IMG/VR virus record: IMGVR_UViG_3300044697_000098
Span: 1-22,843 of that record
Direction: 5' to 3' (one strand)
DNA: 22,843 bases
DNA from: a virus
Shown here: positions 1,908 to 18,995 of the stretch, piece by piece
How positions within the stretch are numbered: the first letter of the stretch is position 1
How the letters are laid out: each line of letters begins with the position of its first letter
Notes under the pieces: generated by a model
Databases searched by the model: none
Told to the model about the DNA's origin: nothing
Seen by the model: the letters and a program-made list of their open reading frames with translations, nothing else
Made by a program: the position numbers and the translations under genes

Positions 1908-1932
1908 CCGACCGCACTCCGGGGAGGGACCG

Positions 1933-2217
1933 ATGTTTCCATACGTCCCGCCCCAGTTCATTGGCCTCTCGACCGCGACCCTGCAGCAGAATCTGGCCAC
2001 CGCCCAGGCGGCCTATGCCCAATTGACGGCCGGATCGAAGGTCGTTCGCGCCGCCTACAACCAGGGCGACGGCGGATCGAAGGAGATCACCTACTATCTG
2101 ACCGACCAGACCCTGGCGAACCTGCAACAGTACATGGCCAGCCTCGCCCAGCAGCTCGCCGGACCTGGCCCGGGCAACCGCTATCGCCGCCGCCCGGCGC
2201 GGCCGCTCTACCTGTGA
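1933..2217 (+). CDS. gpW-like head-tail joining protein
   Basis: This is a 94-residue protein between terminase and portal, which is the place of lambda gpW, the small protein that joins head and tail. The start is the ATG at 1933, preceded by GGGAGG at 1922-1927. The same frame is open far upstream, but that part overlaps terminase and is not used. Residues 14-40 form an alanine/glutamine-rich helix (LQQNLATAQAAYAQL). A short turn then contains GSKEITYYL, and a second helix follows (LANLQQYMASLAQQL). This helix-beta-helix order fits the gpW fold, and the tail is basic (RYRRRP). The stop overlaps the GTG start of the portal gene. Assignment rests on order, size and pattern rather than a unique motif. 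Confidence 0.75.
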   Translation: MFPYVPPQFIGLSTATLQQNLATAQAAYAQLTAGSKVVRAAYNQGDGGSKEITYYLTDQTLANLQQYMASLAQQLAGPGPGNRYRRRPARPLYL

Positions 2218-3911: not shown

Positions 3912-4804
3912 GCCGCTTGGCCTTCCTTTCGCAACGTGTGTTCAACACGCCTCTAGCGGTCCATCCCCGCAAGGCGGAAGTGATCGTTGCGGCCCTGGCC
4001 GAGCGGCTCGGCGTCGCCTCCATGGCGCGCCTCGAGGCGGATGGCCTGGCGATCATCCCCATGGCCTACGACGATTGGGGCGATGACGATCTCGCCCATC
4101 CGTCGACCGTCCGGACGTCGCCGGATCGTGGCTATGACTTACTCGGCCCCATCGCCGTCATTCCGGTGACTGGCACCCTGGTCCAGAAGAACAACTCGGT
4201 CCGCCCCTATTCCGGCATGACAGGTTACGACGGCATCCGCGCCGCCGTGGCCCTCGCGCTCGATGACCCCAACGTCGAGAAGATTGCGCTCAATATCGAC
4301 TCGCCCGGCGGGGAAGTGGCCGGATGTTTCGACCTGGTGGACGGCATCTTCGCCGCCCGGGGCGACAAGCCGATCTGGGCCGTGCTCGATGAAATGGCCT
4401 GCAGCGCGGCCTACGCTATCGCCTCTGCGGCCGATCGCGTCATCGTCCCGCGCACGGGATTTGCCGGCTCGATCGGCGTCATCTGGATGCACGTCGATTT
4501 CAGCCAGGCGCTCGGCAAGGCGGGGATCAAGGTCACCTTCGTCACATCCGACGCCGCCGACCGCAAGACCGACGGCCATCCGGAGATCCCGCTCAGCGCC
4601 GAGGCGTTCGCCTCCATCAAGGGCCAGATCGATGACATGGGTCAGCTATTCTACGACACCGTCGCCCGCAATCGCGGCCTGACCTCGGCCGCCGTGCGCG
4701 GCCTGCAGGCTGACACCTTCCTCGGCCCCAAGGGCCTCGACGTTGGCCTAGCCGACGCCGTCATGGCCCCCGACGCCGCCTTCCGCGCCCTCCTGGGCGT
4801 CTGA
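3908..4804 (+). CDS. Capsid maturation protease, S49/ClpP-like (lambda gpC type)
   Basis: This is a serine protease that acts inside the prohead, removing scaffold and trimming head proteins. The 298-residue product has the signal-peptide-peptidase-A fold signature: NIDSPGGEVAG (about 129-139), CSAAYAIASAADRVI with the nucleophile at Ser166, GFAGSIGVIWMHVD (184-197), and a candidate catalytic lysine, Lys220, in ADRKTDGHP. This is the Ser/Lys dyad pattern of phage S49 enzymes. Lambda gpC is 439 residues and carries the Nu3 scaffold in frame at its C terminus. This protein stops after the protease domain, and the scaffold-like part appears to be the next, separate gene. Start ATG 3908 overlaps the portal stop as ATGA, so translation is probably coupled. 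Confidence 0.93.
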   Translation: MSRLAFLSQRVFNTPLAVHPRKAEVIVAALAERLGVASMARLEADGLAIIPMAYDDWGDDDLAHPSTVRTSPDRGYDLLGPIAVIPVTGTLVQKNNSVRPYSGMTGYDGIRAAVALALDDPNVEKIALNIDSPGGEVAGCFDLVDGIFAARGDKPIWAVLDEMACSAAYAIASAADRVIVPRTGFAGSIGVIWMHVDFSQALGKAGIKVTFVTSDAADRKTDGHPEIPLSAEAFASIKGQIDDMGQLFYDTVARNRGLTSAAVRGLQADTFLGPKGLDVGLADAVMAPDAAFRALLGV

Positions 4805-4826
4805 TCTCACCGCAAAGGAAAATCTC

Positions 4827-5501
4827 ATGACGGCTCTGCGCACCGCCGCGCGGTCCACGACCGCGCTCGGCTCCTTCGCCCACCTGCTCGGCATCCCGGT
4901 CGCCAAGCGGGCCGAGAATGACGAACCGCGTTCGCCGCCGGAGGACGACGATTCCGGCGCCCAACGCGCCGAAGACGAAGACGGCGCCAAGCGCGCCGAG
5001 AGCGACGACCGGGAACCCTGCAAGGAATGCGACGGCACCGGTGAAGACGACGAAGGCGAAGCCTGCGACGCCTGCGACGGCACCGGCAAAGAACCGGCGG
5101 AAGACGATGACGCCCGGCGCGCCCGCCGCGCCAAGAAGGCCGAAACCGACGAGGAGGCTGCCGAGGAGCAGGACGAAGACGAAGATGTGCGCAAGGCCGC
5201 CAAGGCCGGCCGTCGCTTCGAGCGCGCTCGCTGCAAGGCGATCTTCGCCCATCCGGCCGCCGGCGTCCGCCCAGATATGGCCGCCCAACTGGCCTTCGGC
5301 ACCAAGCTCTCGGCCAAGCAGGCGATCAGCCTGCTGAAGGAGTCCGCCAATGTGCGCGGTGGCCACCAGCATGGTCCGCGCGCCGCGCGGCCGCGGGTCG
5401 AACTCGTCGATGGCGCGCCGGCCCCGACCGGGTCGAAAGGCATGGCCGCCCGCATCGTCGCCGCCGGCAAGAAGCGCCGCGGCGAAAAGCCGACGAACTG
5501 A
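4827..5501 (+). CDS. Probable scaffold-like acidic protein with paired CxxCxGTG zinc motifs
   Basis: This 224-residue protein sits between capsid protease and decoration protein, where lambda encodes the Nu3 scaffold. AAGGAAA at 4814-4820 precedes the ATG. Residues 27-62 hold three related units, AKRAENDE, AQRAEDED and AKRAESDD. Residues 65-72 and 80-87 read CKECDGTG and CDACDGTG, two DnaJ-type CxxCxGxG motifs that could bind one zinc ion. Residues 92-133 are highly charged and probably helical or coiled. Residues 134-171 (ERARCKAIFAHPAAG... AKQAISLLKE) resemble, from memory, the C-terminal extension of gpC-type proteases, so this looks like a protease/scaffold gene split in two. The end is basic (KKRRGEKP). 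The scaffold role is inferred from position, charge and helicity. No J domain is present, so it is not a DnaJ chaperone. Confidence 0.6.
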   Translation: MTALRTAARSTTALGSFAHLLGIPVAKRAENDEPRSPPEDDDSGAQRAEDEDGAKRAESDDREPCKECDGTGEDDEGEACDACDGTGKEPAEDDDARRARRAKKAETDEEAAEEQDEDEDVRKAAKAGRRFERARCKAIFAHPAAGVRPDMAAQLAFGTKLSAKQAISLLKESANVRGGHQHGPRAARPRVELVDGAPAPTGSKGMAARIVAAGKKRRGEKPTN

Positions 5502-5506
5502 GATCA

Positions 5507-5524
5507 GGCGGCCGGTCGGCCGCC
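5507..5524. repeat. GC-rich inverted repeat between scaffold-like gene and gene D
   Basis: Arms GGCGGCCG (5507-5514) and CGGCCGCC (5517-5524) are perfect complements around GT. In RNA this would be a very stable hairpin with about 7 paired bases. No run of T follows, so it is a poor intrinsic terminator. It may act as an mRNA stability or processing element between genes needed in different amounts. Confidence 0.45.
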
Positions 5525-5563
5525 GCCCCTCCCTGAAACCTCAAGCTGAAAGGGCTCGGCCCG

Positions 5564-6289
5564 ATGACGATCCTCAACCCCACCTCGTATGGTGACAATC
5601 AACAGGTTCCGAGCGCCTCCGCCGAAACCTTCATTCCTGACCAGCTTATCGCTGGCGGTGGCGCGGGCCTGGTGTCCGACACCGTAATCTTCGTTGGGGG
5701 CGCCGACCTGAAGCGCGGAACGCTCGTCGGCCTGCAGGCCGGCGTCGCGCCAGGCGCGGCTGTCGCGGCAGGTCAAGGCGCTGGCGGCGCCAACACCGGC
5801 AACGGCACAATTTCGGCGATCAGCGTCAGCGCGGACGTTTCGGCGGGTCTCTACCTCCTGACCTTTACGGGCGCGACAGCCTTCACCTTGACCGATCCGT
5901 TCGGGAATGTGGTGGCGGCGCCGGCCGCGCTCGGCGCCTTCACGTCGAACCAGATCAACTTCACGTCGGCGGCCGGAGGGACTGCCTTTGTCGCCGGCGA
6001 TGGCTTCAGCTTCACGGTCACCGGGGGGGCTTTCATCCTCTCCCTGCCCGGCGCGACCGATGGCAGCCAGGTGCCGGCTGGTGTCACGGCCGACTATGTG
6101 CCCCTGTCGGTGACGACCCCGCAGCAAGGCGGCATCTATCTGCAGGGCGAATTCAACGCCAACTATATGACCTTCGGCGCCGGCTGGGATCCGGCCAGCG
6201 CGAAGGTCGCCCTGCAGAAGGCCGGCAAGCCGATCTACCTCAAGGACGTCGGCGCGCTCGACTCCACGAACATCGATCCCACCCTCTGA
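5564..6289 (+). CDS. Head decoration protein, lambda gpD family, with an inserted beta domain
   Basis: Decoration protein D trimers cap and stabilise the expanded capsid. At 241 residues this is roughly twice the size of lambda gpD (about 110). The N terminus (residues 1-68) contains the family features DLKRGTLVGLQ. The C terminus (about 155-241) contains GGIYLQGEFNANYMTFGAG and LQKAGKPIYLKDVG. Between them, residues about 72-154 form an extra segment (GANTGNGTISAISV ... FTLTDPFGNVV ... FVAGDGFSFTVTGG). It is rich in Thr, Ser, Gly and alternating hydrophobics, as expected for an added beta-sandwich exposed on the capsid. I recall similar segments in other phage decoration proteins, so it is probably a mobile domain rather than unique. 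The start is ATG 5564; the ribosome binding site is weak (GAAAGGG at about 5547). It lies just before the major capsid gene, as D precedes E in lambda. Confidence 0.85.
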   Translation: MTILNPTSYGDNQQVPSASAETFIPDQLIAGGGAGLVSDTVIFVGGADLKRGTLVGLQAGVAPGAAVAAGQGAGGANTGNGTISAISVSADVSAGLYLLTFTGATAFTLTDPFGNVVAAPAALGAFTSNQINFTSAAGGTAFVAGDGFSFTVTGGAFILSLPGATDGSQVPAGVTADYVPLSVTTPQQGGIYLQGEFNANYMTFGAGWDPASAKVALQKAGKPIYLKDVGALDSTNIDPTL

Positions 6290-6390
6290 ATAGTCGCGTG
6301 AGCATGGGCAGCCGCTTCATCGGTCGCCCCCTCCCGCACCTTCCCCTTTAAACCCGCCGGGCCCGAGCCCGCGCAGACGGAGCATTCCCC

Positions 6391-7479
6391 ATGCCTGGTG
6401 GCAATCTGATCTACGACACCAACACCCTTGTCGAGGTGGTGCCGAACCTGAAGACGAGCCAGAACTGGCTCGCCGACCGGTTCTATCCCAACATCATCGA
6501 GGCCGATTCCGAGTTCGTTTCGATCGACGTTGACGTCGGCAAGCGGCGCATGGCGCCCTTTGTGAGTCCGTTGGTCGAGGGTCGGTTGATCGAGCAACGG
6601 CGCTACCAGACCAACACCTTCAAGCCCGCCTATACCAAGGACAAGCGGGCGCCGGATCTACGCAAGCCCGTGCGCCGGATGATCGGCGAGCGCATCGGTG
6701 GCGACATGTCCGGCGAAGAGCGGCAAATGGCCAATCTCGAGTTCGAACTCACCGACCAGATCGATATGCTCAACCGACGCATCGAATGGATGGCGGCTTC
6801 GGCGCTCGAATATGGTCAGGTGACGATCGCCGGCGACGGATTCGAGTCGGTCACCGTGAACTTCGGACGGGACGCGAGTCTGAGCGTCACCCTGACCGGA
6901 ACCTCCGCCTGGGGCGTCCCGGCCAACTTCACCGCCGCGGGCAAGGATCCTCTGCCCACCGCCTACATCGAGGGCTGGCAGCGCCAGATCCTCCAGGTTT
7001 CGGGCGCCGTGGTCACCGATGTCGTCTTCACCACGGCGGCCTGGGCGCTGTTCATGAACTCGGTGTTCGCCGAGGGCGCCATCTTCTATCCCAAGCTGGG
7101 TGACGGCAACGCCCTCAACCCAGGTGCGGAGATCAAGCAGGGGGCGGTGTTCAAGGGCTGGTGGGGTCAATATCAGTGCTGGCTCTACAACGACTGGTAT
7201 GTCGACCCGACCAACACCGAACAGCCGATGATCACCGACGGTATGGTCATCCTCTGCGGCGAGCAGCTGATGGGCACCCGCGCCTTCGGCCAGATCATGG
7301 ACCCCCGGTTCAACTATGAACCCATGGCCTATGCGCCCAAGACCTGGATCTCCGACGACCCGGCGCAACAATACGTCATGATGCAGTCCTCGCCGATCGT
7401 GATCCCGAGCCGGGTCAACGCCTGCCTGGCGGCCAACGTCCTCAGTGGCGACTCGGTCGTTCCCGGCATCACGATCTGA
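6391..7479 (+). CDS. Major capsid protein, lambda gpE family
   Basis: This is the main shell protein of the head. It has 362 residues (lambda gpE has 341). Visible gpE-family features are the N-terminal QNWLADRFYPNIIEADSEFVSIDVD, the following PFVSPLVEGR segment, the YTKDKRAPDLRKPVRRM arm, and the C-terminal stretch from about residue 315 that ends QSSPIVIPSRVNACLAANV. Start ATG 6391 has GACGGAGC upstream at 6374-6381. Position directly after D supports the call. The 101-base gap before it (6290-6390) holds no gene and no clear promoter; a 5-bp GC hairpin near 6358-6371 is too short to interpret. Confidence 0.93.
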   Translation: MPGGNLIYDTNTLVEVVPNLKTSQNWLADRFYPNIIEADSEFVSIDVDVGKRRMAPFVSPLVEGRLIEQRRYQTNTFKPAYTKDKRAPDLRKPVRRMIGERIGGDMSGEERQMANLEFELTDQIDMLNRRIEWMAASALEYGQVTIAGDGFESVTVNFGRDASLSVTLTGTSAWGVPANFTAAGKDPLPTAYIEGWQRQILQVSGAVVTDVVFTTAAWALFMNSVFAEGAIFYPKLGDGNALNPGAEIKQGAVFKGWWGQYQCWLYNDWYVDPTNTEQPMITDGMVILCGEQLMGTRAFGQIMDPRFNYEPMAYAPKTWISDDPAQQYVMMQSSPIVIPSRVNACLAANVLSGDSVVPGITI

Positions 7480-8772: not shown

Positions 8773-9006
8773 ATGCTGATCCAGCTCGCGCCGGGCGTGC
8801 GCCTGCGCAACCCGGTGACCCTGCGACTCGTCGGTCCCGAACCGTTCACGGTCGGCGACCACGACTATTTCTGGCTGCGCCGCCTGCGCGACGGTGACGT
8901 CGTGAAGGTCGAATCGGCTGCGGCGGTCCCGGTTCCCTCGCCGGCCGCCAAGCCGGCCGCGTCGGCGTCCACCTCCGTTGATGGGCCCAAGGAGGCCGTC
9001 CAATGA
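8773..9006 (+). CDS. DUF2635 protein (Mu gp38-like)
   Basis: This is a 77-residue protein preceded by GAGGAGGG (8762-8769) and started at ATG 8773. The N-terminal half (LIQLAPGVRLRNPVTLRLVGPEPFTV) followed by YFWLRRLRDGDVV is the typical pattern of DUF2635, the small protein encoded just upstream of the tail sheath in Mu-like phages. After residue 48 it becomes a low-complexity Ala/Pro/Ser/Val tail. Its stop overlaps the sheath start as ATGA. Its role in virions is not known to me. Position directly before the sheath is the strongest supporting evidence. Confidence 0.85.
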   Translation: MLIQLAPGVRLRNPVTLRLVGPEPFTVGDHDYFWLRRLRDGDVVKVESAAAVPVPSPAAKPAASASTSVDGPKEAVQ

Positions 9007-10535
9007 GCGACATCGCCTTCGCCCAGATCCCGCAGAACCTCCGGGTGCCGCTGTTCTACGCCGAGCTGAACAACAGCCAGGCCAACACGGCCCAGAGCGC
9101 CCAACCGACCTTGCTGATCGGCCAGATGCTGACCACGGGTTCGGCGACGCCGAACGAGCCGGTGCAATGCGCCGGGCCCGCGAACGCCATCGCCCTCTGT
9201 GGCGCGGGTTCGATCCTCGCCCAGATGGCCGCGACCTATCTGAAGATCGACCCCGCGGCCGACCTGTGGCTGTTGCCGCTCTCCGATCCGTCGGGCGGCG
9301 CGGCGGCGACTGGCGCGATCGCCTTCGCCGGCTCGCCCACGGCAAATGGAACGATCAGCCTCTATATCGCCGATCAGCTGATCTCGATTCCGGTCACCAC
9401 GAGCGAGTCCGCCACCTCCATTGCCGCGGCTGCGGTTGCGGCGATCACCGCCGCCTACGGCTGTCCGCTCTCGGCGGTGGTCGATGGCGTCACGGTGACC
9501 AAGGTCGACGTCACCGCCCTGAACAAGGGAACGCTCGGCAATGGCATCGGCCTCGCGCTGAACCTCGGCGGCAACGGCTCCGGCCAGGCGACGCCGGCTG
9601 GCCTCACCGTGACGATCACCGCCATGTCCGGCGGCACGGGCGTTCCAGTCCTGGCCACGGCCCTGGCCAACCTCACCAGCCATCCGGCCGATTTCATCGG
9701 TCATCAATTCGTCGACACGACCTCGATTGCGGCCATTACCGCCTTCCTGGCCGACATCGGCGGTCGCTGGGCCTATAACGCCCAGATCTACGGCCACGCC
9801 TATGGCTCGATCGCCGCGACATTCAGCGCCGCCGGAACCTTCGGCTCCGAGCTGAACGACCAGCATCAGACCTTCCTGCCGGTCAACGGTTCGGCGACCA
9901 TGAACTGGAACTGGGCCGCCTGGATGACCGCCTTGGTGGCGCAGAGCATCCGCGCCGACCCGGCCCTGCCGCTTCAGTTCATCGGCGCGGCGGGCGTCAT
10001 GGCGCCGCCGATCGCCGACCGCTTCGACGCCGTCGTCGGCGAGACGAACACCCTGCTCTATGAAGGGATGAGCGTCTTTGACGTGCTGCAGGGGGGCATC
10101 TGCCAACTGCTGGCAGTGATCACCACCTACCAGCTCAACGCCGAGAACCAGCCCGACAATTCGTATCTCTACGTCACCACGCTCTACACGCTGATGGCCT
10201 TCATCCGCGGAATGAAGAACCTGGTGCTGTCGAAGTACAGCCGGATCAAGCTGGTCACCGACGGTTCCCGGCCCACGCCAGGCAGTGGCGTCGTCACCCC
10301 CGCCACCATCGAAGCCGACCTCAACGTCTGGTACCAGAGCCAGATCCCGCAGCTGGTCCAGAACGCGGCCTATTTCGCCGCCAATCTGATCGTCGAGCAG
10401 AACGCCCAGAACCCGAACCGGGTCGACGTTTTCGCCGAGCCGATCCTCACCGGCGGGATCTCGATCTTCGCGGTGCTCAATGAGTTCCTGCTGGCCACGC
10501 CGGCGTCCGCCACCACCACCGCCGCGGCGGCCTGA
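9003..10535 (+). CDS. Contractile tail sheath protein (Mu gpL type)
   Basis: The 510-residue sheath subunit contracts to drive the tail tube through the envelope. AAGGAGG at 8989-8995 gives an ideal ribosome binding site 7 bases before ATG 9003. Features in order: IPQNLRVPLFYAELNNSQAN near the start; ALCGAGSILAQMAATYLKIDP; a Thr/Ala-rich beta insertion around residues 105-215 (ATGAIAFAGSPTANGTISLYIADQ ... VDVTALNKGTLGNGI); then FIGHQFVDTTSIAAITAFLADIGGRWAYNAQIYGHAYGS and a C-terminal domain ending GGISIFAVLNEFLLA. This is the Mu L family layout and size (Mu gpL has 495 residues). It is followed by tube gene M in the standard order. It proves that the tail module is of the contractile kind despite the lambda-like head. 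Confidence 0.94.
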   Translation: MSDIAFAQIPQNLRVPLFYAELNNSQANTAQSAQPTLLIGQMLTTGSATPNEPVQCAGPANAIALCGAGSILAQMAATYLKIDPAADLWLLPLSDPSGGAAATGAIAFAGSPTANGTISLYIADQLISIPVTTSESATSIAAAAVAAITAAYGCPLSAVVDGVTVTKVDVTALNKGTLGNGIGLALNLGGNGSGQATPAGLTVTITAMSGGTGVPVLATALANLTSHPADFIGHQFVDTTSIAAITAFLADIGGRWAYNAQIYGHAYGSIAATFSAAGTFGSELNDQHQTFLPVNGSATMNWNWAAWMTALVAQSIRADPALPLQFIGAAGVMAPPIADRFDAVVGETNTLLYEGMSVFDVLQGGICQLLAVITTYQLNAENQPDNSYLYVTTLYTLMAFIRGMKNLVLSKYSRIKLVTDGSRPTPGSGVVTPATIEADLNVWYQSQIPQLVQNAAYFAANLIVEQNAQNPNRVDVFAEPILTGGISIFAVLNEFLLATPASATTTAAAA

Positions 10536-10550
10536 TAGGGAGATTGACCG

Positions 10551-10925
10551 ATGGCCATGGGCCGCCTCGCCGGCACCGCTTACCTGTATATCGACGGCGT
10601 CAGCTATCCGCTGGTCGGCGACTTCAAGTACAGCGTCGCGCCGATCAGCCGTAGCACCCTATCCGGCATGGATAGGGTCCACGGCTACAAGGAAAAGCCG
10701 CGCCCGGGGTCCATGGCGGCCAAGATTCGCGACTGGGGTGGCCTCTCGGTCGGCGGCGTCAACGCCATGACCAATGTCACGGTCGTGGCCGTGCTGGCCA
10801 ACGGCAAGACCATCACGCTCGGGGGCGCCTGGACGGTCGGCGAGGGCGAGGAGGTCGAATCCGAGGACGCCGACTTCGACGTGCGCTGGGAAACCGACAA
10901 CTTCACCGAGGCCACAAGCCAATGA
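10551..10925 (+). CDS. Tail tube protein (Mu gpM type)
   Basis: This 124-residue subunit forms the inner tube under the sheath. TAGGGAGA at 10536-10543 precedes ATG 10551; a second in-frame ATG at 10557 is also possible. The family pattern is clear: AGTAYLYIDGVSYPLVGDFKYSV, then GMDRVHGYKEKPRPGSMAAKIRD, then ALANG-type strand VLANGKTITLGGAWTVGEGEEVESEDADFDVRWE. The length matches Mu gpM (118 residues). It lies directly after the sheath and overlaps the tail chaperone start (ATGA at 10922-10925). Tube and sheath are made in large amounts in equal copy number, which fits their adjacent strong ribosome binding sites. Confidence 0.93.
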   Translation: MAMGRLAGTAYLYIDGVSYPLVGDFKYSVAPISRSTLSGMDRVHGYKEKPRPGSMAAKIRDWGGLSVGGVNAMTNVTVVAVLANGKTITLGGAWTVGEGEEVESEDADFDVRWETDNFTEATSQ

Positions 10926-11254
10926 CCGCCGACGCCGAAGAGCCGAAGCCGACGAAATATGTCTTCCGCGGCCAGGGGTTCGCCGAACTGCCGGACGAAC
11001 TCGTCATCCCGCTGCCGCGCAGCTATGGCCTGTCGCCGACGGCGCCGCAGCACGACGAACTGCGTTTGCGCGAGCCGACCGAAAAAGAGTTCCGCACCGA
11101 GGCCTCCAAGAGCAGGTCCCACCTCATCGCCAAGATCTGCGGCATGCCGGTTGAGTTGGTCGAGCAACTGCCGGTTTCGATCGTCAATTCGGCGGAGGCC
11201 TACCTGCTTTTTTTCGTCAACGCCGACCAGTGGACGGAGACGCCCGCAAGCTGA
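10922..11254 (+). CDS. Tail assembly chaperone, Mu gp41-like (zero-frame product)
   Basis: This 110-residue protein lies between tube and tape measure, the conserved place of the tail assembly chaperone that coats the tape measure before tube polymerisation. Visible family features are LREPTEKEFRTEA at about residues 55-67 and LIAKICGMPVELVEQLPVSIVNSAEAYLLFF near the end. Codons 96-98 are CTT TTT TTC, giving the -1 slippery heptamer T-TTT-TTC at 11209-11215. Without a shift, translation ends at TGA 11252-11254, giving a short tail (VNADQWTETPAS). With a -1 shift it enters the gp42-like frame, giving a fusion of about 152 residues. Such paired products are a conserved feature of long-tailed phages. 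Confidence 0.88.
   Translation: MTADAEEPKPTKYVFRGQGFAELPDELVIPLPRSYGLSPTAPQHDELRLREPTEKEFRTEASKSRSHLIAKICGMPVELVEQLPVSIVNSAEAYLLFFVNADQWTETPAS
11209..11215 (+). promoter_or_regulatory. -1 ribosomal frameshift slippery site (T TTT TTC)
   Basis: Seven T and one C (TTTTTTTC, 11208-11215) lie in the gp41 frame as CTT TTT TTC. The heptamer T-TTT-TTC allows both tRNAs to re-pair one base back. It is located 13 codons before the zero-frame stop, exactly where chaperone genes of tailed phages shift. The -1 frame then stays open for 54 codons and closes precisely at the tape measure start. A possible stimulatory stem-loop follows at 11219-11270. Confidence 0.8.
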
Positions 11255-11379
11255 CGCTGGCGGCGGCGTTTGGCTGGACGCCGCGCACGATCGCCGATCT
11301 CACCATGAGCGAGATCGTCTGGTGGTCGGACGGCGCCTTGAGGCTGAAACGCGGCGGCGAGCCTGATCGGGAGGCCTGA
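11215..11379 (+). CDS. gp42-like C-terminal extension of the tail chaperone, reached by -1 frameshift
   Basis: This frame has no start codon of its own near its beginning (the only ATG is at 11305), so it is most likely read as the end of a gp41-gp42 fusion. After the shift it gives RQRRPVDGDARKLTLAAAFG, then WTPRTIADLTMSEIVWWSDG, then a charged tail ending PDREA. The AFGWTPxxIADLTMSEIVWW core resembles the second half of tail chaperone pairs, for example the P2 E' and Mu gp42 kind (AFGWSP-x-L... W). The TGA at 11377-11379 overlaps the ATG of the tape measure gene. Inferred from family knowledge, the extension recruits the tape measure while the gp41 part recruits tube subunits. Confidence 0.78.
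   Translation, partial: RQRRPVDGDARKLTLAAAFGWTPRTIADLTMSEIVWWSDGALRLKRGGEPDREA
11219..11270 (+). promoter_or_regulatory. Possible frameshift-stimulating stem-loop
   Basis: AACGCCG (11219-11225) can pair with CGGCGTT (11264-11270), and CCAG (11227-11230) with CTGG (11257-11260), leaving a small bulge and a loop of 26 bases. It begins 3 bases after the slippery site, somewhat closer than usual for stimulators. No folding energy was computed. Confidence 0.35.
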
Positions 11380-13091
11380 TGCGCTTTCCCATCGACATCA
11401 CCGCCGATGAACATCCGAGCATCGGCCGGGCGATCGGCAAGGTCGAGAACCGGTTCAAGCGGCTCCAGGAGCCCTCCGCCCGCTGGCGGAAGGATGTTCT
11501 GGATGCGGTCAAGCCCTTCGACGCTCTGCATCGCAGTGTCGAGCGCATCGTCAAACCCATCGCCCGGGTCCACGACTCCTTGGCTGGTCTCGGCCGGACC
11601 CGTGGTAGCCTCGGCGGCGCATCGAGCGCCGCCAGGTCCCTGGCGCAATCCCTACGCCAGGCCATCCCAGGGATCGGCGACGTCGCCAATGACAACGGCC
11701 TCGCCGGCGCGGCGGGACGGATGTCGGCCCTCGGCGAGGCCGGCGAGGCGGCCGGCGGCGGCCTCGAGGCGGCGGCGGGCAGTGCGGGCGGTCTAGCGAT
11801 CGCCAGCCTTGGGGTCGTCGGCGCCGTAGGCGGCGCGGCCGTCGCAGTCGCTGGGGCCGGCGTCGCCGGCCTCGAAATGGCGGCGAAATGGGACAGCTCC
11901 GTCGTCGCCCTCGACAACCTGTCGAAGAACATCGGCATCTCCATCGTCGACTTGCAGGCCTGGAAGGCCGCGGCCGAACAGGCCGGCGTCAAGGCCGACG
12001 ACATGGCCACCGCCATCGGCAACATCCGTCGTCACGCGAACGCCGTTCGTCTCGGTCAAGACCCTACGGCCCAGTCCATCCTGCAGACCTATGGCGTCAA
12101 CCCACAGGACTTCGCCAAGGCCAGCTTCGCCCACCAGGCCGACCTGATCGGGGCCATCACGCGGCAGCAAAGCACGCCGCAGATGCAGGCCCTGGTCGCC
12201 GAGGCCTTCGGGGCCGGCGGCATCCTGCCGCTCCTGCGCCAGAGGCCAGGACAGACCCGCGCGGCGATGGACATCTACAAGGCCACCGGCTCGCCGATCA
12301 CGGCGGAACAGGCGGCCAAAGATCGCGCCCGCGTCGCCAATGAGGCCCGCACCAAGCAAGCGATTGGGGGCGTGGGCAATCGCGTGGGCCAGTTCGGCTC
12401 CGACATCGCCAATCCGGTCTGGGCGGCCGGCGCCGGCTTCACCTCGTTGTTCGCCTACATGGCTCACCGGATGATGGGCGGAAAGCCGGGAGCTCCGGCC
12501 ACGGGGGCGCCGACGGCGAAGGGCGTCGCCTCGGTCGATCACCTCAGCACGGCCTTCGACACGTTCGCGCGCCGGATCGAACAGATGGAATCCGGTGGCC
12601 GGCAGTTCTGGCGCGCCGGCGGGGTCAAGGTTTCTCCCAAGGGCGCGGTGGGCGCCATGCAGCTGCTGCCCGCGACGGCGCGCCGCGTCGCCCAATCGCT
12701 CGGCGAGGCCTTCGATCCAGCGCGTCTCCTTGGCGATCAAGGCTACAACGAGCATCTCGGTAGGGCCGAGTTGGCGCGGCTGCTCAAGGTCTATGGTGGC
12801 GACCAGACCCTGGCGGCGGCAGCCTACAACGCCGGCGAAAAGCGGGTGAACCAGTGGCTGCATCGCCCGGGGATGGGCGATCCGCGCTCGGGTCGGATCT
12901 CCGATGCCTCCTGGGCGGCCATGATCCCGTTCCGCGAGACCCGCGACTATGTGCGTCAGACCGCCCAGCCGCAAAAGATCGAGGTCGTCGTGACGCTGGC
13001 CAATCTCCCCGCCGGTTCGACCGCGACGGCGCACAACGATCACGGACCGGTGCCGGTGAAGATCGGCCATAGCCAGGTGGGGCGAAGCTGA
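11379..13091 (+). CDS. Tape measure protein with C-terminal lytic transglycosylase domain
   Basis: This protein sets tail length and is ejected into the host, where its enzymatic part can open peptidoglycan. It has 570 residues. Residues 1-70 are helical and charged, residues 115-168 are Gly/Ala-rich and hydrophobic (possible membrane-active segment), and residues 170-330 are helical. From about residue 390 there is a soluble lytic transglycosylase-like domain: RRIEQMESGG with candidate catalytic Glu404, then KGAVGAMQLLPATARRVAQ (421-439), YNEHLGRAELARLLKVYGG (456-474), and AAAAYNAGEKRVNQWL (479-494). These are the ESGG, GAMQLLP and AYNAG landmarks of the family. It is short for a tape measure; if about 0.15 nm per residue applies, the tail would be near 80-90 nm or less. 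Starts overlapping the gp42-like stop and ends overlapping the gpN-like start. Confidence 0.9.
   Translation: MRFPIDITADEHPSIGRAIGKVENRFKRLQEPSARWRKDVLDAVKPFDALHRSVERIVKPIARVHDSLAGLGRTRGSLGGASSAARSLAQSLRQAIPGIGDVANDNGLAGAAGRMSALGEAGEAAGGGLEAAAGSAGGLAIASLGVVGAVGGAAVAVAGAGVAGLEMAAKWDSSVVALDNLSKNIGISIVDLQAWKAAAEQAGVKADDMATAIGNIRRHANAVRLGQDPTAQSILQTYGVNPQDFAKASFAHQADLIGAITRQQSTPQMQALVAEAFGAGGILPLLRQRPGQTRAAMDIYKATGSPITAEQAAKDRARVANEARTKQAIGGVGNRVGQFGSDIANPVWAAGAGFTSLFAYMAHRMMGGKPGAPATGAPTAKGVASVDHLSTAFDTFARRIEQMESGGRQFWRAGGVKVSPKGAVGAMQLLPATARRVAQSLGEAFDPARLLGDQGYNEHLGRAELARLLKVYGGDQTLAAAAYNAGEKRVNQWLHRPGMGDPRSGRISDASWAAMIPFRETRDYVRQTAQPQKIEVVVTLANLPAGSTATAHNDHGPVPVKIGHSQVGRS
12036..12049. repeat. 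14-base core of the repeated inverted repeat, copy 3
   Basis: GCGAACGCCGTTCG here encodes part of HANAVR in the tape measure protein. It shares the core with the copies at 1812-1828 and 7504-7520. Codon bias may account for it, since it lies inside a coding frame. Confidence 0.35.
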
Positions 13092-13588
13092 TGGCCTGGC
13101 GTGACCAGCTGCAGCAAGCCAGTTTCCGCGGGGTGCCGTTCGGCGTCCTGACCATCGACAACCACGACGGCCGCGAGGTCGCCGTTCACACCTATTTTGG
13201 CCGCGACGACGTCTGGCCGGAGGATGTTGGCGGCGCTCCGAGCCGTCACGGGATCCTCGGCTTCCTCGTCACGGACTCCAAGGTCTATGGCGGCGGCGAT
13301 GTCCTGCAGCAGCGCACCCAGATGGTTGCGGCATGCAAGACCAAGGGCTCGGGCACGCTGGTCCATCCGACCCTGGGCGCGCTCACGGTCACCCTGGTCA
13401 CCCCACTGATCACGCGGGAGCGCTGGGATAGCGGTCGTTATTTCGAGATCCAGTTCGACTTCGTCGAGGCCGGAAAGCAGCTCTTCCCATCGTCCAACGC
13501 CAACACCGGCCAGGGCGTTCAGACGGCGGCGACGAACGCCAATGGCGCGGCCTCGAACGCCTTCAGCCAGACCCTGCTGACCGTATGA
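13091..13588 (+). CDS. DNA circularization/baseplate protein, N-terminal half (Mu gpN-like)
   Basis: This 165-residue product corresponds to the N-terminal domain of Mu gpN (DNA_circ_N family): WRDQLQQASFRGVPFGVLTIDNHDGREVAVHTYFGRDDVWPEDVG, then a GFLVTDSKVYGGGDVLQQRTQMVAAC helix region, then GSGTLVHPTLGALTVTLV. GTLVHPxLG is the most characteristic part. The end (residues 140-165) is a short Asn/Ala-rich linker. In Mu the protein is about 490 residues in one chain; here the remaining part is the next gene, joined by an ATGA overlap at 13585. Despite the historical name, gpN is a baseplate component at the tail tip. Confidence 0.85.
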   Translation: MAWRDQLQQASFRGVPFGVLTIDNHDGREVAVHTYFGRDDVWPEDVGGAPSRHGILGFLVTDSKVYGGGDVLQQRTQMVAACKTKGSGTLVHPTLGALTVTLVTPLITRERWDSGRYFEIQFDFVEAGKQLFPSSNANTGQGVQTAATNANGAASNAFSQTLLTV

Positions 13589-14433
13589 GCCTTTCATCGG
13601 CCGACTATGCGGCCGCCTCAGCGGTCTGCGCCCAATGGGTCGCCCAGTACGAGGCTGCGGCCCAGGACGCCACCCGCCTGCTCGGTCTGGTCAGCGAGCT
13701 GAGCGCGCCCCCCGACACGACCTTCGGCCGCTATGTCGCCGGCGGCAATCAGGGGTTCCTGGCCGGCAACGCCGGGCCCTATTCGGCTGACACCACGGTC
13801 GACCAGCTGGTCGCGCAGGGCGCGGCCGAGCTGGCGGCCGTCACGGCGGCGGCAGAGGCCGCGCAGGCGGCCGTCGACGACATGGGCAGCACGGGGAGCT
13901 TCGCGGGCGCCGCCACGGGCGCCCAGGCCCTCGCCGCCGCCCTGCTGGCGGCCTGCGCCGACCCAGCCGACGCCGTTCGGCTATTCGCCGGCCTCGCCGC
14001 CTTCCAGGCCACCGGCCTCTCGGCGGCGACCACGGCCGGCGGCGCGGTGCAGAGCCTCTTCGCGGCCACCACGGTCGTCGCCCTGGCCCAGGCCGCCCAG
14101 ACCTATCAGCCATCGAGCCAGACCGACGCCCAGTCCGTGCTGGAGCAGGTCACCGGTCTGCTCGACGCGCAGATCATGGCGGCCGGCAACACCTTCCAGG
14201 ATGCGCTGTTCACGGCCCTCCGGGCGCTGCGGGTCGCGACGGTGCAGGATCTTCAGGCCCGCGGCGCCAACCTCGCGCCGATCGTCACGGTGACCGAGGC
14301 GGCCAACCTGCCCAGCCTGGTCATTTCTCAGCAGCTCTATCGCGACGCCACCCGCGCCAACCAACTCGAGATCCAGGCCAACCCCGTCCATCCGCTATTC
14401 ATGCCGACGTCGTTCCCGGCCCTGGCGTCCTGA
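13585..14433 (+). CDS. Mu gpN-like C-terminal half as a separate protein
   Basis: This 282-residue, very alanine-rich and helical protein is encoded right after the gpN N-domain. The region DALFTALRALRVATVQDLQARGANLAPIVTVTEAANLPSLVISQQLYRDATRANQLEIQANPVHPLFMP (about 200-276) matches the remembered pattern of the gpN C-terminal part: a helix, 'DLxARGAxLA', 'LPSLVxAxxLY' and a terminal 'NPxHPxFxP'. The middle (60-190) is low-complexity helix. Start ATG 13585 overlaps the previous stop, and its own stop is one base into the next start (TGATG). Likely function: part of the baseplate hub together with the upstream product. The split could be ancestral in this phage group. Confidence 0.7.
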   Translation: MSLSSADYAAASAVCAQWVAQYEAAAQDATRLLGLVSELSAPPDTTFGRYVAGGNQGFLAGNAGPYSADTTVDQLVAQGAAELAAVTAAAEAAQAAVDDMGSTGSFAGAATGAQALAAALLAACADPADAVRLFAGLAAFQATGLSAATTAGGAVQSLFAATTVVALAQAAQTYQPSSQTDAQSVLEQVTGLLDAQIMAAGNTFQDALFTALRALRVATVQDLQARGANLAPIVTVTEAANLPSLVISQQLYRDATRANQLEIQANPVHPLFMPTSFPALAS

Positions 14434-15110
14434 TGGTCGCCATCCGCATGGACGTGCGCCGCGGGTTGCGCGAACTGGAGTGCGGCTTCGACGCCTTCAC
14501 GCGTCGCCAACTGCCGTTCGCCACCGCCCAGATGCTCAACGCCGTCGCACCGATGGCCGCCGCGGCCGAGATGGTGGGGATCCAGGATACCCTGGGGCCG
14601 GTCACGGCCTTCACCCGGCGGGCCATGGCCGTGCGCCGAGCCTCGAAATCCCGACCGGTGGCGACGATCTTCGTCAAGGACATCCAGGCCGAATATCTGG
14701 AGCCCTACATGCCGGGGGGCTCCGGCCGCCAGGTCTTGAAGTCCCGCGCCGTGCTGGCGCCCGTTGACCTCAAGACCAACCAGTACGGCAACATCCCGCG
14801 CGGCAAGCTCGATGCCCTGAAGGGTCAGAAAGACATCTTCATCGGACCGGTGAAGACCAAGGATGGGGTCATCAACGGCGTGTGGCGGCGGATCGCGGCC
14901 GGCAGGGCGCAGGGGCGTCGGCGGCGCGCCAAAGGCACGGGCGTCGATCTCGGCGCCAAGGGGCGGCTGGAGCTGCTCATCCGGTTCGAGGATCCCAAGG
15001 CCGTGCGCCCGCGCCTGAAATATGGCCAGCCCACGGCCATCGTCCTCTCCCGTCACGTCTATCCCGAACTGGAGAAGGCCTTGCGCCAGGCCCTGGCGAC
15101 GGCGCGCTGA
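14433..15110 (+). CDS. Putative minor tail/neck protein (gpZ-like)
   Basis: This is a 225-residue basic protein. The N-terminal pattern RGLRELECGFDAFTRRQLPFATAQMLNAVAPMAAAAEM, followed by a TRRAMAVRRASK segment, ARIFV-type strand (VATIFVKDIQAEYLEPYMPGG), resembles phage proteins often described as minor tail protein Z-like. These have a helix with 'QLPFAxAxALN' and then a beta domain. Residues 150-168 are strongly basic (RRIAAGRAQGRRRRAKG), and residues 175-190 contain ELLIRFEDPKAVRPRLKYG. In this position, between gpN and hub protein P, it could belong to the baseplate or neck. The function is not proven by any motif. It is placed one base over the preceding stop and is followed by the P gene after one base. 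Confidence 0.5.
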   Translation: MVAIRMDVRRGLRELECGFDAFTRRQLPFATAQMLNAVAPMAAAAEMVGIQDTLGPVTAFTRRAMAVRRASKSRPVATIFVKDIQAEYLEPYMPGGSGRQVLKSRAVLAPVDLKTNQYGNIPRGKLDALKGQKDIFIGPVKTKDGVINGVWRRIAAGRAQGRRRRAKGTGVDLGAKGRLELLIRFEDPKAVRPRLKYGQPTAIVLSRHVYPELEKALRQALATAR

Positions 15111-15111
15111 T

Positions 15112-16173
15112 ATGGCGACCGACCCGGACCTCCTCAGCCTGGTGGTGAACGGGCAGGCCCTGACCGGCTGGCAGAGCGTGCGGGTCACGGCCGGCATCGA
15201 ACGCTGCCCGCGCGATTTCGACATCGAGCTGACCGAGAAGGATCCGCAGGCGACGCAGGTCCAGATCCAGGCCGGCAATCCATGCACGGTGATGATCGGA
15301 CAGACCCTGGTCGTCACCGGTTATGTCGACCGCTACATACCGAGCTTCGCGCCTGGCGCGCACAGCGTGCGCATCGTCGGCCGCGGCAAGGCTGAGGATG
15401 TCACCGACAGTTCGGTCGAATGGCCGGGCGGCCAGATCACCGGCGCCAACGCCCTCTCGGTCGCCCAGAAGCTCTGCCAACCCTATGGGATCACGGTCTC
15501 CAGCACCGCGCCAGCCGGCCCGTCAATCCCGCAGTTCAACCTCAACCTCACCGAAAGCGCCTGGGAGGTGATCGAGGAGATCAGCCGGTTCGCCGGCCTC
15601 CTCGCCTATGACGGTGCGGACGGAAACCTGATCCTCGCCCAGGCCGGGACTCAGACCCACGCATCGGGCTTTCAGGAAGGCGTCAATGTCCAGACGGCCT
15701 CCGTGGTCTATTCCATGGACCAGAGGTTCAGCGAGGTTGACGCCTGGCTGCAAGGCACGGAGACCCTCGGCGAGGCCGGCAACGGCGGCAACCTGCTCTA
15801 CCGCGCCACCGACCCCCAGGTTCCGCGCCATCGCCGCAAGTCGATCATCACCGAGGCCACCTATGGTGGCCAGGACGTCGCCAAGCAGCGGGCGTTGTGG
15901 GAAGTGGCCCGGCGGGCCGGTCGCTCGGCCAGCGTCACCCTGACCACGGACACCTGGCGCGACAGCGCCGGCAACCTCTGGACGCCGAACTGGCTGGCGT
16001 CGGTCAACCTGCCGGCCTTGAAGCTTCAGACCGTCACCTGGTGCGTCGCCGAGGTGACCTTCCTTCGGGCGCGGGCGGGGGGCACCATGGCCCGGCTGAC
16101 GTTGATGGACCCCAAGGCGTTCCAACCCGAGCCGATCCTGCTGGCGCCGGTCATCCGGGGGCTAGCGCAATGA
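15112..16173 (+). CDS. Baseplate hub protein (Mu gpP/gp44-like)
   Basis: This 353-residue product starts at ATG 15112, one base after the previous stop. The frame is open further left but would run into the upstream gene. Features: LLSLVVNGQALTGWQSVRVTAGIERCPRDFDIELTEK at the N terminus, VMIGQTLVVTGYVDRYIPSFAPGAHSVRIVGRGKAEDVTDSSV, then ALSVAQKLCQPYGI, then a domain with NLNLTESAWEVIEEISRFAGLLAYDGADGNLILA and a C-terminal VTFLRARAGGTMARLTLMDPKAFQPEP. This order (beta barrel, 'GRDxxxDLVDSSA'-like loop, helix 'AWEVIExIARxxGLL') is that of hub proteins of the gpD/gp27/gp44 kind. It forms the trimeric centre of the baseplate and holds the spike encoded next. Overlaps the gp45 start as ATGA. Confidence 0.9.
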   Translation: MATDPDLLSLVVNGQALTGWQSVRVTAGIERCPRDFDIELTEKDPQATQVQIQAGNPCTVMIGQTLVVTGYVDRYIPSFAPGAHSVRIVGRGKAEDVTDSSVEWPGGQITGANALSVAQKLCQPYGITVSSTAPAGPSIPQFNLNLTESAWEVIEEISRFAGLLAYDGADGNLILAQAGTQTHASGFQEGVNVQTASVVYSMDQRFSEVDAWLQGTETLGEAGNGGNLLYRATDPQVPRHRRKSIITEATYGGQDVAKQRALWEVARRAGRSASVTLTTDTWRDSAGNLWTPNWLASVNLPALKLQTVTWCVAEVTFLRARAGGTMARLTLMDPKAFQPEPILLAPVIRGLAQ

Positions 16174-16721
16174 TCGAGGCCCTGGCCAAGCGGCTCAATC
16201 TTGCCATCGGTCGCGGGCGCATCAAGGCCGTGGACGACAGCGGCCCGGTGCAGATGCTGCAGGTGGATCTCGGGCCGACCGGCCCGGACGGCGGTTCGAT
16301 GCAGACGGTCGACCAGGTGCCCATGGTTCTGCACTTCGGTTTTGAGTCGAGCCCGCCGGCGGACACCGATATCGTCACCCTGCACATTGGCGGCCGGCGC
16401 ACCTCGGCTATAGGAATCGGCCACAACAGCCAGCAATACCGCGGCCGGAATCTGCCTCAGGGCGATGTCCGCATGCGCGACATCCGTGGGGCCTATATCT
16501 GGCTCACCGCCGCGGGCCCGGTGATCGACGCGGGTGGCCAGGATGTCACGATCCAGAATGCCGCCAATGTGACGGTGACCGCGACCACGAAGGTGACCGT
16601 CAACGCGCCGGCCGTCGAGCTGGGGGGCTCAGGGGGCCAGCCGGTCGCGCGGGTCGGCGACACCGTAAATCTCACTACCGGTGTGATCGAGACTGGCTCC
16701 GATGTCGTCTCCTCCACCTAG
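16170..16721 (+). CDS. Baseplate spike/assembly protein (Mu gp45, gpV-like)
   Basis: This 183-residue protein starts at ATG 16170 within the P gene stop overlap. The N-terminal OB-fold-like part reads RGRIKAVDDSGPVQMLQVDLG ... MQTVDQVPMVLHFGFESSPPADTDIVTLHIGGRRTSAIGIGHN. The C terminus changes to repeating strands, ITAAGPVIDAGG-type turns and VTIQNAANVTVTATTKVTVNAPAVELGG (about 128-155), the pattern of a triple-stranded beta helix. It ends GQPVARVGDTVNLTTGVIETGS. This is the membrane-piercing spike at the tail tip in Mu (gp45). No HxH iron-binding tip motif was seen. The stop is directly followed by the gp46 ribosome binding site. Confidence 0.9.
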   Translation: MIEALAKRLNLAIGRGRIKAVDDSGPVQMLQVDLGPTGPDGGSMQTVDQVPMVLHFGFESSPPADTDIVTLHIGGRRTSAIGIGHNSQQYRGRNLPQGDVRMRDIRGAYIWLTAAGPVIDAGGQDVTIQNAANVTVTATTKVTVNAPAVELGGSGGQPVARVGDTVNLTTGVIETGSDVVSST

Positions 16722-16730
16722 GGAGGCCGC

Positions 16731-17171
16731 ATGGACATCACCACGGTCTGGCGGACGACGCACGGCGACTGGTGCATGAGCGGCCCGGGGCTGCTCGCCG
16801 GCGACGATCTCCAGACCTGCGTGGCGATCATGCTGTTCACCGATCGGGTCGCCGATCCGGATGATGTGATCACCGATGGCACCGGAGATCCGCGCGGTTG
16901 GTGGGGCGATGCCTATCGCACCCGCCCGATCGGCTCGAAACTCTGGCTCTATGAGCGGGCGAAGCAGATCGCGCCGACTCTGCTGAGTGTCCAGAGCGCC
17001 GCCCAGACTGCGTTGCAGCCGCTGATCGACGACGGCGTCGCCGCCAGCGTGAGCGTCGCGGTGAGTTGGAACGGCCCCGGCTTCCTGCTGCTCCAGACCG
17101 GGATCCAGCGGCCCGGCGCCGCGCAGCCCAGCGCTTACAGCTGGGCCTGGGACATGCAGCGGAGCGCCTGA
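16731..17171 (+). CDS. Baseplate wedge protein (Mu gp46, GP46 family)
   Basis: This 146-residue protein has GGGAGG at 16721-16726 and ATG 16731. The family landmarks are LLAGDDLQTCVAIMLFTDRVADPDDVITDG, then DPRGWWGDAYRTRPIGSKLWLYERAKQ, followed by a long helix (TLLSVQSAAQTALQPLIDDGVA) and a closing strand region. The GWWGD...IGSKLWLLxR block is characteristic of Mu gp46 and related gp25-like wedge proteins. These link the hub to the J wedges and start sheath assembly. It overlaps the next gene by one base (TGATG). Confidence 0.92.
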   Translation: MDITTVWRTTHGDWCMSGPGLLAGDDLQTCVAIMLFTDRVADPDDVITDGTGDPRGWWGDAYRTRPIGSKLWLYERAKQIAPTLLSVQSAAQTALQPLIDDGVAASVSVAVSWNGPGFLLLQTGIQRPGAAQPSAYSWAWDMQRSA

Positions 17172-18337
17172 TGCCCTTTAGCCGTCCGACGCTTCAGGCC
17201 CTGATCGACGAGGCCGCGGCCGATGTCGCATCCGCTCTGCCGGGTGCTGACGCCTTGCTGCCAGAGAACAACCTCACCGTCCTCGCCTTCGTCCTCGGGG
17301 CGATGACGAACGGCAACTACGGCTTTCTGGACTTCATCGCTCAGAACGCCGTGCCGTTCACCGCCACCGGCGAATTCCTCGAGGCCTGGTCGGCGTTCAA
17401 AGACATCACGCGCCTGGCGGCCACGAGCGCCAGCGGTTCGATCGCCTTCACCACGACCGGCGCCAATATTCCGAGCGGCACGCCGATCCAGCGCGGCGAC
17501 GGTGAGCCGTTCGTCACCGTCGGCGACGGGACGGTGGTCAGCACGACCGTCACGGTCCAGGCCATTGACCTGAACACCGGCGCGCAGGGCAACTGCCCGT
17601 CCGGAACAGCCTTCACGCTCGGGACCGCCATCGGCGGCGTGACCTCGACCGGCGCGGCCTCGACAGCCTTCACCGGCGCCGCCAACGTCGAGACCGACGC
17701 CGCGCTCCGCACGCGGATGCTCAAGGCATACGCCGCGCCGCCGCAAGGGGGCGACCTGGCCGACTACATCAACTGGGCGCTCGATGTGCCCGGCGTCACG
17801 CGGGCCTGGGCCGTCGGCTCGACCCTCGGGGCCGGCACCGTCCAGGTGTTCTTCATGATGGACGTGTCGGAGGCGACCTACGGCGGCTTCCCGCAGGGAT
17901 CCAACGGCGTCGCCACGGCGGAAACCCGCGCCACACCCGCGACGGGAGATCAGCTGGCCGTGGCCAACGCCATCTTTCCGAAGCGCCCGGTCACAGCCGA
18001 AGTCTATGCCTACGCGCCGCTGAACAACCCGGTGGCCATTACGATCGCGGGGCTCGCCAGTTCGACAACCGCGACGCGGCTGGCGATCCAGACCGCGATC
18101 GCCGCGGCCTTCCTGCAATATGCCGCGCCAGGGGGTGTGACCGATTCCGACGGCAACCCGATCGGCGTCATGGACGTCTCGGCGATCGATGCGGCTATCC
18201 TCTCGGTCAGCGGCACGACTGGCTTCGTGGTCACTGCGATCACCTGCCCGAACGGGACGGTGACACCGGGCGCGGCCGGCAACATCACCTCCAACACCGG
18301 CTATCTCGCGACACTCGGCGCAATCGCCTATGTCTGA
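17171..18337 (+). CDS. Baseplate J-like wedge protein (Mu gp47)
   Basis: This 388-residue product starts at ATG 17171; the upstream open frame lies inside gp46. N terminus RPTLQALIDEAAADVASALPGADALLPENNLTVLAFVLGAMTNGNYGFLDFIAQNAVPFTATGEFLEAWSAFKDITRLAATSASGSI is the typical J start. The middle carries ETDAALRTRMLKAYAAPPQGGDLADYINWALDVPGVTRAWAVG, and the end carries FPKRPVTAEVYAYAPLNNPVAITIAGL. These are the conserved J-family blocks. The protein forms the arms of the baseplate and controls sheath triggering. It overlaps gp48 by 8 bases (ATGTCTGA). Confidence 0.94.
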   Translation: MPFSRPTLQALIDEAAADVASALPGADALLPENNLTVLAFVLGAMTNGNYGFLDFIAQNAVPFTATGEFLEAWSAFKDITRLAATSASGSIAFTTTGANIPSGTPIQRGDGEPFVTVGDGTVVSTTVTVQAIDLNTGAQGNCPSGTAFTLGTAIGGVTSTGAASTAFTGAANVETDAALRTRMLKAYAAPPQGGDLADYINWALDVPGVTRAWAVGSTLGAGTVQVFFMMDVSEATYGGFPQGSNGVATAETRATPATGDQLAVANAIFPKRPVTAEVYAYAPLNNPVAITIAGLASSTTATRLAIQTAIAAAFLQYAAPGGVTDSDGNPIGVMDVSAIDAAILSVSGTTGFVVTAITCPNGTVTPGAAGNITSNTGYLATLGAIAYV

Positions 18338-18995
18338 CGTGACCTTCGTCGACCTGGCCGTCGACGCCGCCGGCGACACCCTGGCGGTCGATGCCGGCGG
18401 CGACTCCCTGCTCGCCTACATCCAGAACGACTTTCCGCCGCCCAATCCGCCGGTCTTCACCCAGGCCGACTATCTGTTCGCGATGCAGGCTCTGATGCCC
18501 CGCGGCCGCGTCTGGCCGCGCTCGCCGGGCGCGACGCAGACACAGGTTCTGGCCGCTCTGGCCGCCAGCTTCTGGCGCGTTTCGGTGGCCGCCGGCGAAT
18601 TGATCCAGGACGCTTTTCCCTCCGACACCGACCAACTGCTGCCGGAGTGGCAGGCCACGCTCGGTCTGCCGGATCCCTGCATCGGGCCCCCGGCCACCCT
18701 GGCCATCGCGCAGGCCCAGGTGATTGCCCAGTTCGCCAACGCCGGCGGCCAGAGCATCGCCTTCTTCGTCGCCCTGGCCGCCCAGCTCGGTTACGCGATC
18801 ACCATTACCGAGTTCACCGGCGCCCAGGCCCATCACTGGCAGGTGAACGCGCCTGGCGCCTCGGAGAGCTTTTTCCACGTCGGGATCAACACGGCGGGGC
18901 AGCCGCTCAGCGTCGATCCGAACACGGCGCTGGAGTGCATCTTTAACCGGCTGAAGCCGGGCCACACCACAGTCAGTTTCGTCTACGGCGGGTAG
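18330..18995 (+). CDS. Baseplate protein, DUF2313/YmfQ family (Mu gp48)
   Basis: This 221-residue protein starts at ATG 18330 inside the end of gp47. The family region begins at about residue 44 (TQADYLFAMQALMPRGRVWP), continues with LLPEWQATLGLPDPC, a helix AIAQAQVIAQFANAGGQSIAFFVALAAQLGYAITITEF, and ends ALECIFNRLKPGHTTVSFVYG. ALLPxGxAWP, LLPxWExxLGLP and LKPAHT are the signature blocks of this family. In Mu, gp48 is the last baseplate gene before the fibres and probably anchors them. Residues 8-27 contain a small tandem repeat (VDAAGDTLAVDAGGDSL) that looks like an added N-terminal segment. Confidence 0.92.
   Translation: MSDVTFVDLAVDAAGDTLAVDAGGDSLLAYIQNDFPPPNPPVFTQADYLFAMQALMPRGRVWPRSPGATQTQVLAALAASFWRVSVAAGELIQDAFPSDTDQLLPEWQATLGLPDPCIGPPATLAIAQAQVIAQFANAGGQSIAFFVALAAQLGYAITITEFTGAQAHHWQVNAPGASESFFHVGINTAGQPLSVDPNTALECIFNRLKPGHTTVSFVYGG

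Follow-up and report, generated by a model that had tools for sequence, protein, structure and literature searches.

Predicted programmed −1 ribosomal frameshifting in a phage with a Mu/SfV-type contractile tail joins two tail assembly chaperone frames

Results

Two overlapping reading frames between the tail tube and tape measure genes

The stretch of virus DNA analyzed here, called the window, comprises 22,843 nucleotides (IMG/VR record IMGVR_UViG_3300044697_000098). It is a mosaic of lambda-like head genes (GpA terminase, capsid E family; 312-7479) and a Mu/SfV-type tail module (9003-18995). On the plus strand, a tail sheath gene of the Mu gpL type (9003-10535; phrog_165, E = 5.7e-145) is followed by a tail tube gene (10551-10925; PF10618, E = 2.7e-29), and 11379-13091 holds the tape measure gene, whose product carries a transglycosylase (SLT) domain at its C terminus (PF01464, E = 8e-13) and matches several tape-measure PHROGs (phrog_2276 at E = 2e-14, for example). 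Beyond it, two overlapping open reading frames (13091-13588 and 13585-14433) encode separate portions of the baseplate hub/DNA circularisation protein, matching residues 3-157 and 197-404 of phrog_184; the related locus L029 has a single gene. A putative tail tip or fibre protein (20111-22408) contains weak Laminin_G_3 and GDSL-lipase-like domains, both below the Pfam cut-offs.

A pair of chaperone genes, also on the plus strand, fills the space between the tail tube and tape measure genes. The zero-frame gene (10922-11254) codes for a 110-aa tail assembly chaperone (TAC), the analogue of lambda G and P2 E, with the C terminus ...VNADQWTETPAS. Its product matches PF10109 (Phage_TAC_7, a family that according to Pfam covers the tail assembly chaperones E, 41, or 14) above the gathering cut-off, at E = 5.3e-6, and the tail protein family phrog_166 at E = 4.9e-5. 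Neither this part nor the −1 part matched an NCBIfam family, and no solved structure matched the chaperone by sequence.

The −1 frame extension (11215-11379), the analogue of lambda T and P2 E', consists of 54 codons (11215-11376) followed by a TGA at 11377-11379 that overlaps the ATG of the tape measure gene at 11379 by one base, as the original prediction had described. The motif AFGWTPRTIADLTMSEIVWW that it had read in this frame is present, and a GpE-type domain spans approximately 11239-11358. Comparison with PF06528 (Phage_P2_GpE) gave E = 0.0011, which is under the gathering cut-off. A profile of the downstream domain built from relatives, with the window left out, recovered the −1 frame of the window at E = 2.3e-8 in a search of 26,965 peptides, the next best window peptide reaching only E = 34. 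In tblastn searches, the −1 peptide weakly matched a Burkholderia phage protein annotated as "tape measure chaperone" (E = 0.02); a match to the "tail assembly protein E/E'" from a Xanthomonas phage had an E value at chance level. Past the zero-frame stop, the GC content at third codon positions of the −1 frame is 0.88, close to that of the sheath (0.89) and tape measure (0.85) genes, which we count as a coding signature. Judged by its sequence, the segment is a P2 GpE/E'-type domain. The name gp42 given to it earlier is a misnomer, since gp42 of Mu is the tape measure protein.

A slippery heptamer in the canonical register

Reading of the sequence, checked with a script, placed the heptamer T_TTT_TTC at 11209-11215, where it had been predicted, inside a run of seven Ts (11208-11214). 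The zero-frame codons are CTT (11207), TTT (11210), TTC (11213), and GTC (11216), which is the canonical register for −1 slippage, and 12 sense codons separate the heptamer from the zero-frame stop (TGA, 11252-11254). The T run is the sole A/T homopolymer of at least 6 nucleotides in the 22.8-kb window, whose GC content is 67%, and T_TTT_TTC is the sole in-frame X_XXY_YYZ heptamer with Y = A or T among the 23 called genes of the window. The site is therefore more than chance would provide. No Rfam family matched near the slip site, apart from one sub-threshold snoRNA match on the opposite strand that was disregarded. A −1 slip at the heptamer would yield a fusion of 152 aa, the size originally estimated, with the residues ...AYLLFFRQRRPVDGDAR across the junction.

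Conservation of the −1 relation in related tail modules

The chaperone gene alone, used as DNA and protein query, retrieved no relatives from phages or IMG/VR. As it is too diverged for a direct search, we gathered tail modules from IMG/VR, GTDB genomes, and phage records with the sheath and tail tube genes as bait. A scan with the N terminus of the tape measure protein found nothing, and scanning 385 genomes that belong to the same class as one alphaproteobacterial relative revealed none that was closer. Identity to the nearest chaperone relatives is only about 30 to 35%, so that the slip site cannot be traced through close relatives.

The two chaperone domains were detected side by side in 228 loci out of 243, a total that includes the window. 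The downstream domain lay in the −1 frame in 227 of these 228 scored loci, including isolate phages and bacterial genomes, and the remaining one was Mu, with a −2 relation; this proportion slightly overstates the rarity of −2, because the 15 loci without an automatic score include −2 cases of the Mu kind as well as Mesosutterella loci. The 227 loci collapsed to 186 distinct junctions, which are counts of non-independent events since the loci are mutually related. Of the 186, 143 contained one or more canonical in-frame heptamers in which Y is A or T; the rate in the remaining genes of these loci (378,000 codons) would predict about 8, so that the enrichment is approximately 17-fold. The heptamers found were T_TTT_TTG, G_GGT_TTT, T_TTT_TTC, G_GGA_AAG, A_AAT_TTT, and others; exact T_TTT_TTC occurred in 11 distinct junctions besides that of the window, including those of alphaproteobacterial and Pseudomonas prophages and of phage SfV.

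These data bear on how the downstream part is expressed. A separate small protein might start at GTG 11230 through translational coupling. This GTG is the one weak start in the −1 frame and stands ahead of the domain, and E' of P2 likewise has a possible GUG start (PMC3931495); to this extent the earlier statement that the frame has no suitable start needs qualification. No Shine-Dalgarno (SD) sequence precedes position 11230, however. When relatives with a separately started downstream gene were sought, the −1 overlap proved to be kept in all scored loci apart from Mu, and 86 of the 186 distinct junctions offered no ATG, GTG, or TTG in the −1 frame ahead of that domain. Separate initiation would not need slippery heptamers, yet these are strongly enriched, which makes it very unlikely.

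We consider it just as improbable that the fusion arises from slippage of RNA polymerase on the T run, giving a fused mRNA. Seven consecutive Ts could permit low-level transcriptional slippage, of which bacterial cases exist (PMC4256274), but many relatives with this arrangement lack a long run of one base, having G_GGT_TTT, G_GGA_AAG, or A_AAT_TTT instead, and the register of the heptamer together with SD-like elements (see below) fits a ribosomal event. Finally, the contig is an IMG/VR-type virus record and homopolymer runs are error prone, but an accidental overlap or a sequencing error, leaving one true frame or unrelated parts, is hardly credible given that the same −1 relation recurs across the scored relatives, isolate phages and bacterial genomes among them, and that both parts belong to known partner families.

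Candidate stimulators of frameshifting

The sequence GGAGG at 11194-11198 (plus strand) ends 10 nt before the heptamer and resembles an SD sequence; the best anti-SD duplex is predicted at −9.5 kcal/mol. Taken singly, the GGAGG of the window was not significant (p = 0.21). Across 69 sites dereplicated at 80% identity, the best anti-SD match with spacers of 6 to 19 nt averaged −7.5 kcal/mol, compared with −5.3 kcal/mol under a synonymous-codon null in which codons were redrawn from the usage of each locus (Wilcoxon p = 5e-9, a value that ignores phylogeny). The excess was absent at spacers of 20 to 33 nt, and also upstream of 207 control Phe codons.

Downstream of the heptamer, a stem had been proposed to follow after 3 bases. 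Folding did predict one at 11221-11265 on the plus strand, but it starts five bases after the heptamer, and its stability (−20.3 kcal/mol in 11216-11265) differs little from that of shuffled sequences (z = −1.36); with longer windows it was no better than shuffles, and a further folding analysis gave z values of −1.3, 0.03, and 0.6, near zero outside the best window. In the 69 dereplicated sites the downstream regions were modestly more structured than shuffles (mean z of −0.9; family-wide means of −0.7 to −0.9), with z below −2 at 16 to 26% of the family sites, and the site under study falls outside these clear cases. As a predicted stimulator at this site, the stem is a weak candidate.

The upstream GGAGG is thus the better-supported stimulator, and it probably helps slippage by pairing with the tail of the 16S rRNA. 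Interference by a ribosome-binding site is a known general stimulator of frameshifting (PMC10885494), and the literature that we searched contained no statement of an upstream SD-like stimulator as a family rule for tail chaperones. We lean slightly toward the view that chaperone frameshifting in Mu/SfV/P2-like tail modules is commonly stimulated by an internal SD-like sequence 6 to 19 nt upstream, maintained by selection at the RNA level, with the GGAGG of the window as one example.

Unusual junctions among the relatives

Approximately 31 junctions, of which those from bacterial genomes belong to Burkholderiaceae, lacked a canonical heptamer; in its place the alignment shows an invariant GGT TTT CAG (C_GGT_TTT), and the −1 frame still holds the P2 GpE-like domain (loci L002-L008, L011-L015, L018, L019, L021-L025, L027, L030, L042, L046, L047, L094, L100, L112, L115, L122, L136, and L142; e.g., L029:7932-8656). 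The zero-frame protein of L029 contains two tandem TAC domains. Gene order is unusual in this clade (L029:8656-11694): next to the chaperone gene comes that for the baseplate hub (DNA circularisation), and only then a tape-measure-like gene, which encodes a tail lysozyme domain. The authors of the Burkholderia phage KS10 genome found no slippery site in its 184-aa chaperone (PMC2628397), which is possibly of the same type.

In prophages of Mesosutterella porci and a near-identical IMG/VR contig, the −2/+1 frame holds the GpE-like domain, the site being CCT CTT TTT GGA (L062:7843-8266, L063:7843-8266, L244:2863-3286, and L246:4843-5266), whereas the related locus L245 (4846-5258; 70% sheath identity) had a −1 relation at CCT TTT TTT ACG. 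By sequence, the direction of the shift appears to have switched here independently of Mu. We regard the Burkholderiaceae junctions, the apparent Mesosutterella switch, and the SD-like excess as being of greater interest than the slip site of the window itself.

Discussion

We propose, with a probability of roughly 0.94, that the tail assembly chaperone gene of this phage with a contractile Mu/SfV-type tail undergoes programmed −1 ribosomal frameshifting at T_TTT_TTC, giving products of 110 and 152 aa. The two frames, the slip site, and the homology and conservation of each are direct observations, and together with the enrichment of heptamers at the junctions they lend strong support to the joining of two tail chaperone frames that was originally predicted. 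Slippage itself, its rate, its stimulator, and the chaperone role we infer. Most ribosomes would translate 10922-11254 into the 110-aa chaperone, while a small fraction (by analogy, probably a few per cent) would slip at TTT TTC (11210-11215), both tRNA-Phe re-pairing one base back on TTT TTT in a tandem slip that the upstream GGAGG probably assists by pairing with the 16S rRNA tail. The slipped ribosomes would continue in the −1 frame to 11379 and produce the fusion with the P2 E'-like domain. By analogy with lambda G/GT (PMC5009743), the 110- and 152-aa products may both bind the tape measure, and recruitment of the tail tube protein during tail assembly may fall to the longer one.

One of the closest parallels is P2 E/E' (E and E+E'; Christie et al. 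2002, as described in PMC3931495), which has PF10109 followed by PF06528 in the same order, a −1 shift on a T run between the tail tube and tape measure genes, and a downstream part that closes on the tape measure start. Unlike the P2 heptamer, that of the window ends in C rather than G; the P2 slip site is T6G, and P2-like phages have T7G or T7C (PMC3931495). The head genes (lambda-like) and sheath (Mu type) also set the window apart from P2, and sequence identity is low. SfV (orf13), Citrobacter phiNP, and Acetobacter phiAP1, whose downstream frames were read as −1 by eye, share the sheath type, the gene order, and the −1 relation, at T_TTT_TTC, TTG, or TTT, but sheath identity is only about 36 to 44% and the sequences of the extension domains differ. 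In lambda, gpG/gpGT has the same genetic arrangement and −1 direction, but the proteins lack sequence similarity to those of the window. The lambda slip site, G_GGA_AAG, is unlike that of the window. The lambda G-T frameshift is reviewed in PMC5009743, which cites Levin 1993 and Xu 2004 for gpG/gpGT. The slip site of Burkholderia phiE067 is GGGTTTT (PMC7266877).

Mu gp41 resembles the window chaperone in its tail module and position and in a weak match to PF10109. It differs in that Mu makes a −2 shift at CGG GGG CGA, whereas the window has a −1 relation and no G-rich site; gp41 also has its own Pfam family, Gp41_Mu, and the Mu extension matches no Pfam family. A −2/+1 downstream frame at CGG GGG CGA was likewise read by eye in Shewanella MuM16-2, Vibrio phage 1.136, and the alphaproteobacterial locus L238. 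The original prediction had noted the −2 shift of Mu, and a 2014 paper on Mu-like phages of Pseudomonas, which describes a −1 shift at T TTT TTC, calls it exceptional (PMC4378225). The suggestion that a −1 site in a Mu-type module would be an informative variation is not supported, because −1 is the rule and Mu the exception. On sequence grounds, the site is a standard −1 frameshift of the P2/lambda/SfV type, a real feature of a well-known kind. Chaperone −1 slips are already known in most long-tailed phages.

In annotations, the chaperone of the window should be entered as two products, of 110 and 152 aa, and the name gp42 should not be used for the extension. The window is a further lineage illustrating that tail modules of the Mu/SfV type commonly use −1, with −2 as the exceptional case. 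From the junctions assembled here comes a testable hypothesis, namely, that an SD-like sequence upstream of the slip site acts as a stimulator, and their survey exposes a clade that lacks the canonical heptamer.
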